64,000 bases of DNA from Prochlorococcus sp. AG-409-P01. GTDB lineage: Bacteria; Cyanobacteriota; Cyanobacteriia; PCC-6307; Cyanobiaceae. The notes under the pieces were generated by a model that was not told the origin of the DNA, did no database searches, and saw only the letters and a program-made list of their open reading frames with translations. A program made the position numbers and the translations under genes. The DNA is taken from positions 62,001-126,000 of the forward strand of contig QCKM01000005.1 in NCBI GenBank assembly GCA_003215335.1, written 5' to 3'. Positions 2,401 through 54,392 of this stretch are shown here, in pieces; position 1 is the first letter of the stretch, and every line of letters starts with the position of its first letter.

Positions 2401-4107
2401 ATGGCCAAACTCATAAGTTTTTCAGATGACTCCCGCAGCGCGTTAGAGCGAGGCATGAATTCACTGGCAGATGCCGTGAGAGTCACCATCGGGCCTCGAG
2501 GTAAAAACGTAGTTCTCGAAAAACAATTTGGAGCTCCCGATATCGTCAATGATGGAGTAACCATTGCCAGGGAGATTGAACTAGAGAATCCCTTTGAAAA
2601 TATTGGCGCAAAGTTAATTGAGCAAGTTGCATCAAAAACGAAAGAGCAGGCAGGCGATGGAACAACAACGGCTACTGTCCTAGCTCAAGCAATGGTGCAT
2701 GAAGGCTTAAGGAATGCCGCGGCTGGAGCAAGCCCAGTGGAGCTTCGAAGAGGAATGGAAAAAGCTCTGAAAATATCTATAGAGGAATTAAGACAACGGA
2801 GTAAAGAGATAGAAGGGAATGACATTCTTCAAGTTGCAACAGTTAGCGCAGGTGGAGATGACCAAATAGGTCAAATGGTTGCCAAAGCAATGGAAAAGGT
2901 CACATCTGATGGAGTGATTACTGTTGAAGAATCAAAATCACTCGCAACGGAACTAGAAGTTACCGAAGGGATGGCTTTCGATCGGGGCTATAGCTCTCCT
3001 TATTTCGTCACAGATAGTGAGAGACAAATATGCGAGTTTGAGAATGCATTGTTGCTACTAACAGATCGCAAAATCAGTTCTATAAGTGATCTCGTCCCAG
3101 TATTAGAAAGCGTTCAAAAAAGTGGATCACCTTTAGTAATACTTGCAGAGGAAGTAGAAGGGGAAGCTCTAGCTACCTTAGTAGTCAACAAAAACAGAGG
3201 AGTCCTACAAGTTGCCGCAGTTCGCGCACCTTCATTCGGCGAACGACGTAAAGCAGCCCTTGCTGACATAGCGGTCCTCACTGGAGGCACTCTGATTAGT
3301 GAAGATAAGTCCATGTCATTGGACAAAGTAGAGATTTCAGACCTAGGTAAAGCCAGACGAATAACCATCACTAAAGACAGCACAACAATCGTTGCCAATG
3401 AAGATCAAAAGGATGCAGTAAACGCAAGAGTTGCATCTATAAAAAGAGAGCTAGAAGATACAGATTCTGAATATGACAGAGAGAAACTCAATGAACGTAT
3501 AGCTAAGCTTGCAGGCGGAGTAGCAGTTATCAAGGTAGGCGCCCCTACCGAAACGGAACTCAAAAATCGTAAGTTAAGAATTGAAGATGCCCTAAATGCT
3601 ACTCGTGCCGCAGTAGAAGAAGGCATCGTTGCAGGTGGTGGGACAACTCTTCTAGACATAAGTGAAGTATTAGGAGATTTAGCGGAAAAACAAAGCGGTG
3701 ACCAACGCACTGGAGTAGAGATTGTGCAACGATCTCTAAGCTCTCCGGTCAAGCAAATAGCAATAAATGCCGGAGAGAATGGAGACGTAGTAGCCGCGGA
3801 AATCCAGCGCTTAGGTAAAGGGTATAACGCACTCAATGGCAAATACGAAGACCTCTTAAAAACAGGAATTCTTGATGCAACAAAGGTTGTCCGCCTTGCA
3901 CTTCAAGATGCTGTATCAATTGCCTCAATGATGATTACAACCGAAGTTGTAATTGCAGAGAAGCCCACCCCTCCTGAGCCTGCAGGCGGAGAAGGCGCAG
4001 GGGATCCAATGGGCGGCATGGGCGGCATGGGCATGCCTGGCATGGGCGGCATGGGCATGCCTGGCATGGGCGGCATGGGCGGCATGGGCATGCCTGGCAT
4101 GATGTAA
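2401..4107 (+). CDS. groL: chaperonin GroEL (60 kDa), groES-less paralogue type
   Basis: A full-length 568-residue Hsp60 that folds proteins in the cytosol by an ATP-driven ring cycle. [22 protein letters not shown], and the ATP motif GDGTTTATV at residues 85-93 with Asp51 and Asp86 are all present. The C-terminus is an extended Gly-Met tail ending in MPGMM, built from GGM and GMP repeats. No groES precedes it and I see no CIRCE inverted repeat in the 105 bp upstream, so this looks like the cyanobacterial groEL2 (cpn60-2) rather than the groESL operon copy. The other copy is outside this window. The start ATG is preceded by a poor Shine-Dalgarno sequence. Confidence 0.96.
4009..4104 (+). repeat. 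Gly-Met codon repeats in groEL tail
   Basis: The 3' end of groEL is a low-complexity array of GGCGGCATG and GGCATGCCT units that encodes the GGM/GMP tail. A 27-bp composite unit occurs twice nearly in tandem and then again with an extra GGM. The array creates long shadow reading frames on the minus strand. Gly-Met tails are normal for GroEL, so the repeat is coding and not mobile. Confidence 0.85.
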
Positions 4108-13208: not shown

Positions 13209-13790
13209 GTGATCGAGATGAAAGTTGCAGGGCTTGCTCTCGATGCAACTAACAGAAGCCCAATAGTTTTGCTTCAAGATTCTTCTGGTCGAAGACAGGT
13301 CCCAATATGGATTGACCATGCTCAGGCGCACAATATTTTGTCGGGTATTCAAGGAAAACGTCCAGAACATCCTCTTACACATGACCTGATGTTGGACCTT
13401 CTCAAAGCAGGTGGTCTTGATTTAGAACGAGTGATTATTCATGGCATCGAAAAAAACAGATTCCAAGCAGTTCTGAAACTTCGCGCCAACTGCAAGCCAT
13501 CCACTCAAGAGCATGCAAGTTCAACCTCAACAATAGAAATAGATGCTCGCCCAAGTGATGCAATTGCCCTATCAGTAAGAAGTAATTGCAGTCTGTGGAT
13601 GCTTGAAAGAGTGGTAGCAGATGCTTCCATTCCAGTAGATGCAGATGCTGACCAACAAGACCAAGACGAATTCCGTCAATTCATCAATGAAATAAGCCCA
13701 GCAGATATTGTCAATCACCTAGAAGCTAAAAAACCATCAATTGATCAGACATCTGAGTCTTCTGATCATGATCCTGATGACAAAAAATGA
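13209..13790 (+). CDS. bifunctional nuclease (BFN, DUF151) domain protein
   Basis: A 193-residue protein whose first 150 residues match the DUF151/BFN family (VAGLALDATNRSPIVLLQD, RRQVPIWID, DLMLDLLKAGG, IEIDARPSDAIALSVRSNC). Plant and some bacterial members have nuclease activity, but for most bacterial ones the role is untested. The C-terminal 40 residues are acidic and probably disordered (DADADQQDQDE, SSDHDPDDKK). The start is GTG 13209, or ATG 13218 three codons on. The stop overlaps the next gene by 4 bp. Confidence 0.88.
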   Translation: MIEMKVAGLALDATNRSPIVLLQDSSGRRQVPIWIDHAQAHNILSGIQGKRPEHPLTHDLMLDLLKAGGLDLERVIIHGIEKNRFQAVLKLRANCKPSTQEHASSTSTIEIDARPSDAIALSVRSNCSLWMLERVVADASIPVDADADQQDQDEFRQFINEISPADIVNHLEAKKPSIDQTSESSDHDPDDKK

Positions 13791-14923
13791 AAGCCTTACG
13801 TCATCCTTTTGGGAAGGGGGCCTCAGTAAGCCTTTTCACATTGGGAACCATGAGGGCAATTTCCTCATCAGAAGTGATGTATTCGGTTGTAAAAGAAGCG
13901 TTGTCTAGTGGAATTAATCACCTAGAGACTGCGCCCAGCTACGGGCTTGCGGAAACCTTATTAGGGATTTCGATAAAAAAGCTAAAAGAAGAAGGCTTAC
14001 AACCTCAGGGGGGATGGGTAATAACAAGCAAGCTTTTACCTGGGGTTGAGTTTGTTGAAGGGCAGAAACAAATAAAAAAGACTCTAAAGCGGCTTGGTTT
14101 AAAAAAGCTTGACAACCTTGCCATCCACGGAATCAACCTCCCCGAACATCTCCAATGGGTTCTCAAAGGTGAAGGAGCAAGAATTCTTCGCTGGGCTGAA
14201 GATGAAAATCTAATTGGTCAAGTCGGATTTAGCTCACATGGCTCAATTCCTCTAATTGAGGAGACATTGGGAAGCATGCGTTTTCAGTTTTGCAGCCTTC
14301 ATCTACATCTCTTTGATCAAGCTCGCATTCCTATAGCAAAAAAAGCCCTTAATAATGGCTTAGGCGTTATGGCCATCTCCCCAGCAGACAAAGGAGGACG
14401 TTTATATGCTCCCAGCTCAACGCTTCTTAAGGACTGCTACCCATTCTCTCCGCTTGAACTTGCCTACCGCTTCCTCTTAGCTGAAGGAATAACGACTCTG
14501 ACAATAGGGGCCAGCCATATCTCAGATTTCAACTATGCCAAAAAACTCAGCCGCTCCAATCACCCTCTTGATCCAACTGAAAAAAAAGCCGTTAATCATC
14601 TGAGCAAGGAAGGCAAGAGACGCCTAGGCAAAACCCACTGCGGGCAATGCCAAGAATGTCTTCCATGCCCAAAAGATGTTCCAATTCCTGAATTACTTCG
14701 TCTAAGGAATCTGGCAATTGGTCATGACATGAATACTTTCGCTAAAGAGAGATACAACTTAATTGGAAGAGCGGGACATTGGTGGGAGGAAGTCAAAGCA
14801 GACTCTTGCGAAAAATGCAGGGACTGCGTTCCCCGCTGTCCTAACAAAATTCCGATCCCAGACCTCCTAGAAGAAACTCACAAGCTTTTGGCTGAAGCTC
14901 CCCGTCGGAAACTATGGGGTTGA
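13787..14923 (+). CDS. aldo/keto reductase with C-terminal ferredoxin-like iron-sulfur domain
   Basis: A 378-residue fusion. Residues 1-260 form an aldo/keto reductase barrel (LGTMRAISS, INHLETAPSYGLAE with the catalytic-type Asp replaced by Glu in ETAPSYG, then ITSKLLP). The rest carries two cysteine clusters, CGQCQECLPC near 285-294 and CEKCRDCVPRC near 341-351, able to bind two [4Fe-4S] clusters. This architecture is known as an oxidoreductase class in cyanobacteria and clostridia. The substrate is unknown. It is co-translated with the BFN protein (ATGA overlap) and converges with the next gene by 12 bp. Confidence 0.85.
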   Translation: MKALRHPFGKGASVSLFTLGTMRAISSSEVMYSVVKEALSSGINHLETAPSYGLAETLLGISIKKLKEEGLQPQGGWVITSKLLPGVEFVEGQKQIKKTLKRLGLKKLDNLAIHGINLPEHLQWVLKGEGARILRWAEDENLIGQVGFSSHGSIPLIEETLGSMRFQFCSLHLHLFDQARIPIAKKALNNGLGVMAISPADKGGRLYAPSSTLLKDCYPFSPLELAYRFLLAEGITTLTIGASHISDFNYAKKLSRSNHPLDPTEKKAVNHLSKEGKRRLGKTHCGQCQECLPCPKDVPIPELLRLRNLAIGHDMNTFAKERYNLIGRAGHWWEEVKADSCEKCRDCVPRCPNKIPIPDLLEETHKLLAEAPRRKLWG

Positions 14924-15916
14924 TTCATTCCATCTCTGCTCAAAAAGTATCTGCTCACCTTGAGAGAGTTCAGGCAATGACCAGCATCTAGACAAAATAT
15001 CTTGCGAAGGAAGAGAAGATATCCTCAAAGATTCAGGAATAGTATTTAATGCGGGTTCTATTTCTTCGAAAGACAAAGGAGGGATCCAGCCGCCTGCAAT
15101 AAGAGGTGACATCAAAGGCATCTTCCAAGCTTTTTCTACCCATGCTTGGGGTACTGGTTCCCTACTTGTTGCCGGACGAACTAATAATGACCAATTCAAT
15201 GGTGCTCCAACCCGAGGGACAACCACTCTCAATCGAGGATCACTTCGAAGACCTGACAAACATCTTTGCAAAGGTAAAACTGCAACTCGACCCTTACCTT
15301 GCAAAATCCAATTAAGGCCATGCCGATCATCAAAAGTCAAAGCTTGTTCGCGCAACCTCAACAGAGCATCAGGATAGTCAATCTTGTCAGCAAGATTGAC
15401 TATCAAACGAGGGCTTTGAGGTAACAGAACCTTCCCCCGAAGACCTGGTTCTAACAAGACTTCCCATCCCGCACTTGCATCTTCAAGCCACTTTTCACCA
15501 TTACGAAAAGCCAAAGCCCATGGACTTAAAGCAACTGGCAAAACACATGAAGCCATTTCAACTTCTAGTCCATTCAAAAAATCACGTGCCAAAGGATTGA
15601 GGCGATCAGCAAGGCGAGGGGTCTGAATAGGTTGAAGATCTTTCTGAGATAAAGCTTTCAGCCAACCATCACCAATTGCTATTAAATCTGTCTTCTCAAG
15701 CTCTTTAAAGAAAAAAGATTGATTCTCAACTTCACTGAAGATTGGCTTGTAACGCCATGGCGCTGGCAAAGTTCGACGCCATTGTTTTGGCAAAGTCTCT
15801 GGGGTAGCCCTTAAAACAGGATGAAAAAAACCACGTCCACAACTTGCAATCATCCCAAATCCTGCGAAAGCCCCAAGCTTCAAAAGTTCTCTTCTGCCAA
15901 CCTTGTAAGGCTTCAT
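14912..15916 (-). CDS. Tat-exported, probably lipid-anchored solute-binding protein (PotD-like)
   Basis: A 334-residue predicted periplasmic protein. The N-terminus GRRELLKLGAF is a twin-arginine motif (Arg8-Arg9) followed by a hydrophobic stretch and IASC, a plausible lipobox with Cys26. The mature part resembles family 1 extracellular solute-binding proteins of the polyamine type (LVRPATSREPVPQAW; LMSPLIAGGWIPP). No transporter permease or ATPase is adjacent. The ligand is unknown. A perfect 14-bp-stem hairpin lies in the coding sequence at 15373-15404. Its 3' end overlaps the convergent aldo/keto reductase gene. Confidence 0.75.
   Translation of the reverse strand: MKPYKVGRRELLKLGAFAGFGMIASCGRGFFHPVLRATPETLPKQWRRTLPAPWRYKPIFSEVENQSFFFKELEKTDLIAIGDGWLKALSQKDLQPIQTPRLADRLNPLARDFLNGLEVEMASCVLPVALSPWALAFRNGEKWLEDASAGWEVLLEPGLRGKVLLPQSPRLIVNLADKIDYPDALLRLREQALTFDDRHGLNWILQGKGRVAVLPLQRCLSGLRSDPRLRVVVPRVGAPLNWSLLVRPATSREPVPQAWVEKAWKMPLMSPLIAGGWIPPLSFEEIEPALNTIPESLRISSLPSQDILSRCWSLPELSQGEQILFEQRWNESTP
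15373..15404. repeat. perfect inverted repeat inside the solute-binding-protein gene
   Basis: GATAGTCAATCTTG (15373-15386), loop TCAG, and CAAGATTGACTATC (15391-15404) pair over 14 bp without mismatch. It lies wholly within coding sequence, in the segment encoding VNLADKIDY. There is no T-run on either side, so it is not a standard terminator. Its significance is unknown. Confidence 0.75.
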
Positions 15917-44916: not shown

Positions 44917-45113
44917 TTTACAAACCATTGAAATGCAAGAGAGCTTGATATCACTTGCCGTAGTGACAAACGCATTTGCTATCAGAGCCCTCAAAGTTGC
45001 GACAAATCACTGGAAAACAGCGATTTCATTTCAACCCAACTCTTCCAGCATCAAAAGCATGTACTTACAACAAATATCGGGATACCTTCAGTGCATCAAC
45101 AAATGAGCTCAGA

Positions 45114-45815
45114 ATGGCCTACAACGACGCAGAAGTACTTGCAGGCGGATTAGCTCATGTACCCATTTTGATTGGCTTCGTTGTTTTCCTTAACTCTTAT
45201 ATAAGCAGTTATCAAAATCGCGAGGGATCTTCAACTCGAAAGGAAGACACTCAAACAGCGACTGCAGCAGAACAAGCTCAACGTATAGCCCAAGAAAGAG
45301 CTGCGGCAGAACAAGCTCAACGTATAGCCCAAGAAAGAGCTGCGGCAGAATCAAAAAACCAAGATATTGACCAACGTCCTGACTCTTATAAATCCGAGAT
45401 TTCAACTCCTGTTAATCCACCAAAGTCATACGTTAATAGCGAAAAATTAGATGCATTTGAAAAAGAATCCAATATGGTTTCGACAACCGAAGAGAGGCTA
45501 AAAGATGAAGTAGAAAGACTAGAAGCCGAAGCAGAGTTTAAAAAGCTTGAAGAACAATCTCGAAACAAAAAATCCTCTAATTTTAGAACAAAGATAAAGA
45601 AAGCCTTTGCAAAGATCAATCCTTGGCAGATAGGAGCAATTGCATTACTTGCAGTAGGAGGAACAAACCTTTTTGCTGCTCAAGAAAACAACAAACACAA
45701 TCCTACAATCAACCAAAGTTCAAACTGGAGAGAGAAGCATCCGTCAACATTTTTATCAATAAAAGAAAGTATCAAGTCCAAGCAATCAATGAGCTCAAAA
45801 GACTTTAAATTATAA
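45114..45815 (+). CDS. membrane protein with Gln/Ala/Glu coiled coil and tandem repeat, function unknown
   Basis: A 233-residue protein from ATG 45114 (MAYNDAEVLAGG); the frame extends upstream to 44976 with atypical sequence. One hydrophobic helix lies near residues 8-30 (VLAGGLAHVPILIGFVVFL) and a second near 180-200 (QIGAIALLAVGGTNLFAA). Between them is a charged coiled coil that includes two identical copies of AEQAQRIAQERAA encoded by a perfect 39-bp tandem repeat. No family is recognised. It may be a recently diverging, lineage-specific envelope or thylakoid protein. Confidence 0.65.
   Translation: MAYNDAEVLAGGLAHVPILIGFVVFLNSYISSYQNREGSSTRKEDTQTATAAEQAQRIAQERAAAEQAQRIAQERAAAESKNQDIDQRPDSYKSEISTPVNPPKSYVNSEKLDAFEKESNMVSTTEERLKDEVERLEAEAEFKKLEEQSRNKKSSNFRTKIKKAFAKINPWQIGAIALLAVGGTNLFAAQENNKHNPTINQSSNWREKHPSTFLSIKESIKSKQSMSSKDFKL
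45267..45344 (+). repeat. perfect 39-bp tandem duplication in a coding region
   Basis: Unit 1 (45267-45305) and unit 2 (45306-45344) are identical over 39 bp and start with GCAGAACAAGCTCAACGT. A third copy begins (GCAGAA) and then diverges. The unit is thirteen codons, so copy number can change without a frameshift. Confidence 0.95.
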
Positions 45816-51847: not shown

Positions 51848-53236
51848 TTGACAACATCCAAACCAAGCGGTGGGTCTCGCCAAAGACTAATGATCTCCTA
51901 TGGCCTTGGGGATGCTGGCACTGGTCTAGCCGCTACACAACTGGGGTTCTACCTGTTCCCTTTCTTTACAGGAACAGCTGGACTTCCTGCATTTGTTGCA
52001 GGTTCCCTATTAATGGTCATCAAAGTTTGGGATGCAATCAATGACCCATTAATAGGCTGGATGAGTGACCGAACAAAGAGCCGCTGGGGGCCAAGAATTC
52101 CATGGATGCTAGGGGCCGCTGCACCATTAGGGATCAGCCTGGCGGCTATGTGGTGGGTCCCCCCAGGAGATTTAAATCAAAAGACTGCTTATTACATAGT
52201 GATAGCGGTTTTATTAATGACCGCCTACACAGGCGTCAATCTTCCCTATGCAGCACTTTCCACGGAATTAACAACCAATACGGCATTACGAACTCGGCTC
52301 AATGCAGCCCGTTTCACAGGTTCAATTCTTGCAGGGTTTAGTGGATTGGTTGTAGCAGCAAAGCTGCTCTCCACTGGGAATGAAGGGTTCATCGCAATGG
52401 GCAAAATCACTGGCTTAATTGCAACGTTGGCGACTCTGATCTCTTGCTGGGGACTAGCTCCTTTTGCAAAAAAAGCACAAAAACCCAAACCTCAATCGGA
52501 ACCATTCCCAAATCAGATCAGGCGCGTCCTTAACAACCAACGTTTCATTCGAGTGATTGGCCTCTATCTGCTTCTTTGGTGCGGCCTACAACTAATGCAA
52601 ACAGTTTCTCTGATTTATCTAGAGCAAGTGATGAAAGTCCCTATAGCTTTATCAAAATGGATCGGGCCAATACCCTTTCAAATTAGCGCCCTCATAGGCC
52701 TACAAGTCTGGAGCTTTTATTCCAATCGCTATGGCAGGATTTCAGCCCTTTATCTAGGCGGAAGCTTGTGGATTACTGGCTGCCTTATTGCAATGTTTTT
52801 GCCTCCAATCAATCCTGAAAGCTACATAGCCAATGCGGGGCAAGACATTGTCAGAATGATCCTTCTCATAGCAACAATTGTCTTGGTTGGATTTGGAGCA
52901 TCTACTGCCTATCTGATCCCATGGTCATTACTCCCAGACGCGATAGATGCAGACCCCGATAAATCAGCAGGAATTTATACAGCTTGGATGGTTCTTATTC
53001 AAAAAATTGGAATTGGTATAAGTGTTCAACTTTTAGGAGTAATGCTCTCTTTTGCTGGCTATAGATCAGCGAGCCAGTGCACTGGCTCGCTGATCTGCTT
53101 GGATCAACCATTATCCGCTCAATTGATGATTCGTGTTTGCATGGGACTCATACCAGCGACCCTAGTTGTATCAGGCCTATTAATGATGCGCCGCTGGCCT
53201 GACCGTAATGCTCATCTAATGGTTTCATCGTCATGA
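51848..53236 (+). CDS. MFS transporter of the GPH (glycoside-pentoside-hexuronide) type
   Basis: A 462-residue, twelve-helix carrier. ISYGLGDAGTGLA in helix 1 and the loop VWDAINDPLIGWMSDRTKSRWGPRIPWM are diagnostic of the GPH/melibiose group. Family members symport sugars, but cyanobacterial ones are uncharacterised. The frame starts with TTG at 51848; ATG 51890 is an alternative, and an ATG at 51819 is out of frame by one base across a C6 run. A 34-bp perfect palindrome lies in the last external loop. The stop overlaps mlaE by 4 bp. Confidence 0.86.
   Translation: MTTSKPSGGSRQRLMISYGLGDAGTGLAATQLGFYLFPFFTGTAGLPAFVAGSLLMVIKVWDAINDPLIGWMSDRTKSRWGPRIPWMLGAAAPLGISLAAMWWVPPGDLNQKTAYYIVIAVLLMTAYTGVNLPYAALSTELTTNTALRTRLNAARFTGSILAGFSGLVVAAKLLSTGNEGFIAMGKITGLIATLATLISCWGLAPFAKKAQKPKPQSEPFPNQIRRVLNNQRFIRVIGLYLLLWCGLQLMQTVSLIYLEQVMKVPIALSKWIGPIPFQISALIGLQVWSFYSNRYGRISALYLGGSLWITGCLIAMFLPPINPESYIANAGQDIVRMILLIATIVLVGFGASTAYLIPWSLLPDAIDADPDKSAGIYTAWMVLIQKIGIGISVQLLGVMLSFAGYRSASQCTGSLICLDQPLSAQLMIRVCMGLIPATLVVSGLLMMRRWPDRNAHLMVSSS
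53063..53096. repeat. 34-bp perfect palindrome inside the MFS gene
   Basis: AGATCAGCGAGCCAGTG (53063-53079) is followed directly by its exact reverse complement (53080-53096), with no spacer; the centre is GTGCAC. It encodes the external loop between the last two helices (YRSASQCTGSLIC). It has no T-run and is not at a gene end. Confidence 0.95.
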
Positions 53237-53979
53237 GTGGACCACGTTGGTTAAGAAGATTTGGCAGCAGCCTCCTTATAGGAGGACAAGCAATCACTGC
53301 TACTGCCAAAGGGAGAATCAATTCAATAGACCTTTTTGATCAGCTCATGGAAGCTGGTCCAGGTAGTTTCCTTATTGTGCTAATTACAGGAATTGCTGCA
53401 GGAACAGTTTTTAATATCCAAGTAGCTGCAGAGTTAAGCAGACAAGGCGCAAGTTCAACAGTTGGGGGGATTCTTGCTGTAGGCATGGCAAGAGAAATAG
53501 CCCCACTTCTTTCAGCAACACTTCTGACAGGAAAAGTTGCAACTGCATATGCAGCTCAACTCGGAACCATGAAGGTGACCGAACAGATCGATGCAATAAC
53601 AATGCTTCGTACCGACCCTGTGGAGTACTTAGTAGTCCCTAGGTTGATCGCCATGGTCATCATGGCCCCAGTACAGTGCTTACTTTTTTTCATAGTTGCC
53701 CTATGGAGCGGGCAAATTAGCAGTACTTATCTGTACCAAATTCCACCTGATGTTTTCTGGACATCAGTTCGAACCTGGCTAAGTCCAGATGATCTCCCAT
53801 TCATGCTGGTCAAAGCATTAGTTTTCGGTCTGCAGATTGCAGTCCTTGCATGTGGCTGGGGTCTGACTACTAGAGGTGGCCCCAAAGAGGTTGGCACCAG
53901 TACAACTGGGGCAGTAGTAATGACATTAGTCACCGTGTCATTAATGGATGTTTTACTAACTCAAATTCTTTTCGGCTAA
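53233..53979 (+). CDS. MlaE-family ABC permease (lipid transport)
   Basis: A 248-residue permease of the MlaE/YrbE/TGD1 family, which moves phospholipids between membranes with MlaD- and MlaF-type partners. AELSRQGASSTVGGILAVGMAREIAPLL, GTMKVTEQIDAITMLRTDPVEYLVVPR and TRGGPKEVGTSTTGAVV are its characteristic blocks, with about five helices. Partner genes are not nearby. It overlaps MFS by 4 bp and the next gene by 1 bp. Confidence 0.92.
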   Translation: MSGPRWLRRFGSSLLIGGQAITATAKGRINSIDLFDQLMEAGPGSFLIVLITGIAAGTVFNIQVAAELSRQGASSTVGGILAVGMAREIAPLLSATLLTGKVATAYAAQLGTMKVTEQIDAITMLRTDPVEYLVVPRLIAMVIMAPVQCLLFFIVALWSGQISSTYLYQIPPDVFWTSVRTWLSPDDLPFMLVKALVFGLQIAVLACGWGLTTRGGPKEVGTSTTGAVVMTLVTVSLMDVLLTQILFG

Positions 53980-54392
53980 TGAAACAAAACCCACAACCAA
54001 ATTCCAACCCAGAGCAAAGCGTGATTTTAAATCCTGCACCACGCTTGCCATTGATAATAACAACTCTAGGCTTTGTTCTTTTACCACTTCCTTTACATCC
54101 CTGGCCAACTATTTTGATAAGTTTTTTTGGCCTAGTGCTTCTTTTTCAAGCATTAACTCTACGGATAGAGTTCTCATCAAAAGCACTTATTGTTTGGCAG
54201 CTTGGGAAAGAAATACGTCGGTTCCCCTTTGAAGATTGGCTTGCCTGGAGGCTCCTTTTACCTCAGTTACCTGGGATCCTTTATTTCCGAGAAAAAGCTA
54301 GCCCCCACCTTTTACCCATACTTTTTGACCCCAAAGAACTCACAAACCAATTAAGACTCAAAGTTGGAGCTCTCGAAAAACCTAAAACTTAA
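53979..54392 (+). CDS. DUF3119-family membrane protein
   Basis: A 137-residue protein whose start codon shares a base with the mlaE stop (TAATG). Residues 20-63 form two helices (LIITTLGFVLLPLPLHP, TILISFFGLVLLFQAL). A cytosolic part with FSSKALIVWQLGKEIRRFPFEDWLAWR follows, which resembles a PH-like domain. DUF3119 is confined to cyanobacteria and plastids as far as I know. Context suggests a lipid or envelope link. Confidence 0.82.
   Translation: MKQNPQPNSNPEQSVILNPAPRLPLIITTLGFVLLPLPLHPWPTILISFFGLVLLFQALTLRIEFSSKALIVWQLGKEIRRFPFEDWLAWRLLLPQLPGILYFREKASPHLLPILFDPKELTNQLRLKVGALEKPKT

Follow-up and report, generated by a model that had tools for sequence, protein, structure and literature searches.

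A perfect 34-bp palindrome in an MFS transporter gene of Prochlorococcus as a probable template-switch scar

Near the 3' end of an MFS transporter gene in a Prochlorococcus genome lies a perfect palindrome of 2 x 17 bp, which is probably the scar of a template switch (quasipalindrome correction) in a tolerant loop of the protein and would have no job of its own. The left arm AGATCAGCGAGCCAGTG is followed, without a spacer, by its exact reverse complement CACTGGCTCGCTGATCT (Table 1). The palindrome is real and not due to chance and, as a preliminary description made from the sequence had stated, it is perfect, spacerless and in frame inside the coding sequence. A template switch at this site is supported by four observations: the two arms are perfectly symmetrical, the sequence has kept its length, no relative has the palindrome, and like repeats are in excess in genes across the genome. 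The palindrome is an unusually long example of an already known mutation process. All positions refer to the window, i.e., the whole stretch of 64,000 nucleotides that was analysed, which belongs to a 1.78-Mb draft genome of 31 contigs (99.5% complete).

Table 1. Window positions of the palindrome, its parts, the genes around it and a second coding inverted repeat
Feature	Position	Strand	Description
MFS transporter gene	51848..53236	+	GPH cation symporter-like, 462 codons; palindrome near 3' end, open frame
Palindrome	53063..53096		two arms of 17 bp
Left arm	53063..53079	+	17 bp; codons AGA TCA GCG AGC CAG TG-; probable template (donor) arm
Right arm	53080..53096	+	17 bp; codons -C ACT GGC TCG CTG ATC T-; probable overwritten (copied) arm
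TGCA centre	53078..53081	+	conserved Cys codon TGC and next A; tetraloop of predicted 15-bp hairpin
mlaE	53233..53979	+	MlaE-family lipid ABC transporter permease; 4-base overlap with MFS gene
Second inverted repeat	15373..15404	-	14-bp arms, 4-nt loop; in gene 14912-15916 (-)

The transporter matches PF13347 (MFS_2; E 9e-71) and, under the curated cut-off, the GPH symporter model TIGR00792 (E 5e-51), and a homologue is present in 128 of the 130 good-quality genomes of the family. The gene behind it had been described as an overlapping mlaE gene, and both the overlap and the match to the MlaE family were found. This order of MFS gene and mlaE is kept in 80 of the 80 relatives checked, with a spacing of -5 to +12 in 79 of these. 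The start of a DUF3119 gene (53979-54392) shares one base, the final one, with the mlaE stop codon, and MFS, mlaE and DUF3119 may form an operon. No match was obtained when phage genomes were searched at the DNA level with the MFS gene, and PADLOC detected nothing. Elsewhere in the window, a 568-codon ORF (2401-4107) has GGM/MPG-type tandem repeats near its end (4000-4101), which probably represent a GroEL-type C-terminal tail, and the ORF at 44976-45815 contains a 39-bp unit twice in tandem (45262-45339, 97% identical) that looks like a recent duplication of 13 codons.

The G+C content of the palindrome (0.59) exceeds that of the MFS gene (0.465) and of the window (0.449), in agreement with the preliminary description, which was also right that it matches no known repeat. 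The 17-mer search of the whole genome that it had proposed returned a single copy, with no other in 1.78 Mb even when 2 mismatches were allowed, and the 34-mer had no match in GTDB contigs and viral contigs. Based on base composition, hand arithmetic gives an expectation of approximately 4e-6 spacerless palindromes with 17-bp arms per 64 kb, or 1e-4 per genome. Perfect two-fold symmetry and a G+C content above the surroundings could also point to the binding site of a dimeric DNA-binding protein, one of the earlier suggestions, or to a cruciform target. The symmetry is, however, longer and more exact than that of usual operators, and the site is intragenic, is not kept in relatives and, with 2 mismatches allowed per arm, has no second copy in the genome on which a regulator could act, so that we consider such a site extremely improbable. 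The earlier remark that long spacerless palindromes are normally unstable does not apply here, since instability is known in E. coli for palindromes with arms over 150-200 nt (PMC9180970), a size far above 34 bp.

The site was compared with its orthologues in a codon alignment of 88 distinct relatives of the MFS gene, which were taken from GTDB contigs and are mostly Prochlorococcus. The genus holds only this one genome, and the nearest relatives are approximately 75% identical at the protein level and 72% at the DNA level. The 13 codons over the palindrome align one to one with those of the nearest relatives, none being gained or lost; as in a template switch, sequence has been replaced and no unrelated sequence inserted. 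The alignment shows this part of the transporter to be a hypervariable loop. It encodes RSASQC-TGSLIC, which fits the pattern of the nearer relatives, Y-[RKQ]-S-x3-C-x5-C-x2-Q-P, and the conserved Gly, Tyr, Ser407, Cys411, Gln420 and Pro421 are all kept (Ser407, with codon TCA in the left arm, occurs in 70 of the 88 relatives, Cys411 in 84 and Gln420 in all). The palindrome itself is absent from every relative: among the 70 without gaps over the site, the best forms 10 of the 17 pairs and the mean is 5.2, a slight excess over the approximately 4.3 pairs expected by chance.

This alignment bears on several other origins. In-frame insertion of a small mobile palindromic element would likewise leave a palindrome in a variable loop, and Rickettsia palindromic elements are families of repeats inserted within genes in such a way. 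The present palindrome resembles them in lying in frame inside a gene, but it is a single-copy replacement of equal length. An insertion of this type is excluded by the one-to-one codon alignment and the single copy; no codons were added relative to the orthologues, no related copies exist in the genome, the remaining repeats of this class are unrelated in sequence, and a mobile element has virtually no chance of being the source. An assembly or amplification artefact, another of the earlier suggestions, would here be a fold-back chimera; such chimeras exist, and the genome is a draft of 31 contigs. Yet an artefact would normally gain or lose sequence. We regard it as highly improbable because length, frame and conserved residues are intact, and like repeats are found elsewhere in the genome as well as in relatives, single-contig assemblies included. 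The nearest of the four readings in the preliminary description was a recent fold-back duplication, of which the fold-back stands and the added duplication does not, the arm having been overwritten at equal length.

The 94 nt around the palindrome are predicted to fold at -37.7 kcal/mol (z -4.5), and this strong hairpin would lie approximately 140 nt upstream of the mlaE start. It could therefore be a functional RNA element of the MFS-mlaE transcript that acts in stability, in pausing or, as had been put forward, in uncoupling the two genes. The homologous 96 nt in relatives, however, fold at only -15.6 +/- 5.9 kcal/mol, and none of the relatives has a comparable hairpin, yet mlaE follows the MFS gene in every one that was checked. 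Since the gene pair is kept without the palindrome, it is independent of the hairpin, and the palindrome does not serve as a conserved hairpin, an operator or an uncoupler. A scan for promoters and terminators found nothing at the palindrome, and the stem is followed by GCTTGGATC, which contains no T-run, as already noted in the preliminary description. An intrinsic terminator was rejected on the lack of this T-run. The only Rfam match was to a snoRNA, far under the gathering score and judged to be chance; with no Rfam match above threshold and a stem that is not kept across relatives, a conserved structured RNA or regulatory hairpin was rejected as well. Having no terminator at the site, no Rfam family and no second copy in the genome, a functional hairpin is quite unlikely.

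For a template switch, the following course of events is proposed. The site would first have carried a short, imperfect inverted repeat about the conserved Cys codon (the TGCA centre), which would have allowed the nascent strand to fold back while the DNA was replicated. The polymerase would then have read one arm to synthesise the other and gone back to its own template, so that a single multinucleotide event would have turned one arm into the exact complement of the other. Such a change would have been tolerated because it is in frame, leaves the length unchanged and falls within the hypervariable loop of the transporter. Which arm served as template is suggested by a modest asymmetry in residues and codons. 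Thr412 and Ile416, both in the right arm, are each found in only 2 of the 88 relatives, and the codons of the right arm are rarer than those of the left (sum of ln RSCU -2.06 vs -0.84), TCG (0.056) and CTG (0.079) being the rare ones; with rarer residues and rarer codons on the right, the left arm is the likelier template. As even the nearest relative, at approximately 72% DNA identity, is too distant to show the immediate ancestor, we infer the single event and its left-to-right direction at this site from the present sequence. Likewise, relatives show only the slight excess of pairs given above, so that an ancestral imperfect repeat, with its fold-back point at the TGCA centre provided by the conserved Cys codon, is presumed.

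The palindrome belongs to a class of coding inverted repeats. Perfect inverted repeats with arms of at least 12 bp and loops of at most 12 nt were collected from 864 kb of the genome, which yielded 36 repeats, 14 of them inside genes. Complete ORFs (712 kb) hold 12 repeats with arms of at least 12 bp and 6 with arms of at least 14 bp, whereas the means are 0.67 and 0, respectively, when synonymous codons are shuffled within genes. Four related genomes (612 kb) contain 16 repeats, compared to 1.1 after shuffling. These counts also bear on the possibility that ordinary substitutions in a fast-evolving loop produced the palindrome by chance. A hypervariable loop permits many sequences, but against this stand the expectation per genome from base composition and the 6 repeats with arms of at least 14 bp in the genome's own genes, for which two synonymous-shuffle runs gave a mean of 0 or 0.1; a chance outcome is thus very unlikely.

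The class is unevenly distributed over the lineages sampled. With arms of at least 12 bp, 14 coding repeats were found in 738 kb of this genome, 16 in 628 kb of four Prochlorococcus-family genomes and 14 in 478 kb of contigs carrying the MFS locus. At the Prochlorococcus rate, 9.5 would be expected in 434 kb of outgroup cyanobacteria, which differ in G+C content and ancestry, and 0 were observed (Poisson P 7e-5); for E. coli MG1655, 1 was observed in 263 kb, with 5.8 expected (P 0.02). The longest palindrome in the sampled genome lies outside called genes, at L124:8148-8201 (G000:C5:28148-28201); it is perfect and spacerless, measures 54 bp (27-bp arms), is followed by GGTTTTTATTTG and is possibly a terminator. 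A gene of another genome (G030) contains two coding repeats approximately 400 bp apart, at L179:13228-13270 (21-bp arms, 1-nt loop) and 13664-13704 (15-bp arms, 11-nt loop), and only two usable relatives of this gene were found (66-67%).

Five further repeats, picked for length or because they were easy to compare and not at random, were compared with their orthologues. The second inverted repeat of the window has gained no codons relative to nearer relatives, and in one of its arms the family-typical Met/Ile-Ser is changed to Val-Asn. The repeat in valS combines the conserved FHPDP in one arm with an atypical MDQ in the other. For the repeat in bioY (18-bp arms), the nearest relative (L283) has only an 8-bp core, CCTGCACA/TGTGCAGG, and a repeat with 12-bp arms in genome G010 is imperfect in several sister species of its genus. 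The repeat in an NhaP-like gene (15-bp arms) encodes residues identical to those in two relatives, which have non-palindromic codons there. The compared repeats thus replace sequence and do not insert it, and relatives carry an imperfect version in two cases (bioY and G010). These repeats fit the predictions of quasipalindrome correction, namely that the length is kept, that relatives carry partial repeats and that changes are concentrated at tolerant protein sites.

Template switching between imperfect arms is documented in E. coli reporters (PMC7202029), where intrastrand copying likewise turns an imperfect inverted repeat into a perfect one. That work used lacZ reporters in the laboratory, whereas ours is an evolutionary inference on 17-bp arms in an environmental cyanobacterium. 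Template switches in coding sequences of S. cerevisiae (PMC8604942) also leave perfect inverted repeats and clusters of in-frame, partly amino-acid-changing substitutions in an arm; ancestors were reconstructed there between strains, while this genome has no strain-level relative. Perfect hairpins can arise by template switching in one step (PMC8794818). Ladoukakis and Eyre-Walker (2008) put an excess of short inverted repeats in prokaryotic genes down to template switching, as far as their work is presented in PMC4060949; the repeats described there measure 6-9 bp and the excess is small, in contrast to arms of 12-21 bp and an approximately 15- to 18-fold excess over the synonymous shuffle in Prochlorococcus. 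Perfect inverted repeats within translated genes are also known from the mitochondria of Nematomorpha (PMC6649704), but those reach up to 284 bp, are numerous in a small genome and encode conserved residues in both arms, unlike the 34 bp found here in a variable loop of one lineage.

The excess in genes coincides with the lack of a match to the palindrome nuclease SbcD, which we treat as a lead, the link being a hypothesis only. The SbcD model TIGR00619 has no match in this genome nor in G001-G004, G006, G007, G011 and G012, several of which are incomplete. Partial matches below the cut-off were found in G008-G010, a full match in G005 and full matches in all seven other cyanobacterial families tested; of the outgroups pooled for the repeat comparison, the SbcD test covered a part. 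For P. marinus CCMP1375, sbcD appears in a published table (PMC3091678), and the group may therefore have an SbcD that has diverged. The effect of SbcCD in E. coli is known for arms over 150-200 nt (PMC9180970), far longer than the present hairpins, and literature searches for a connection between SbcCD and quasipalindromes yielded no directly relevant work. Loss of the large subunit of ExoVII (XseA) was rejected as a cause, as XseA is present in the genome.

Taken alone, the palindrome is a clear case, and an unusually long one, of a known mutation process acting in a gene, and the class matters more than the single case. The excess of the class also points to a hairpin nuclease that may be missing, a link that can be tested. 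We tentatively propose, as a possibility that is still doubtful, that Prochlorococcus fails to remove fold-back errors of replication, e.g., through loss or divergence of the hairpin nuclease SbcCD, and that its genes for this reason carry unusually many long perfect palindromes; template switching would then contribute notably to multi-residue protein change. If approximately 20 or more such scars per Mb really occur in Prochlorococcus genes and almost none in outgroup cyanobacteria, template switching contributes measurably to clustered amino-acid changes there, and these clusters could pass for positive selection. Such protein change would then be at work in one of the most abundant photosynthetic organisms.
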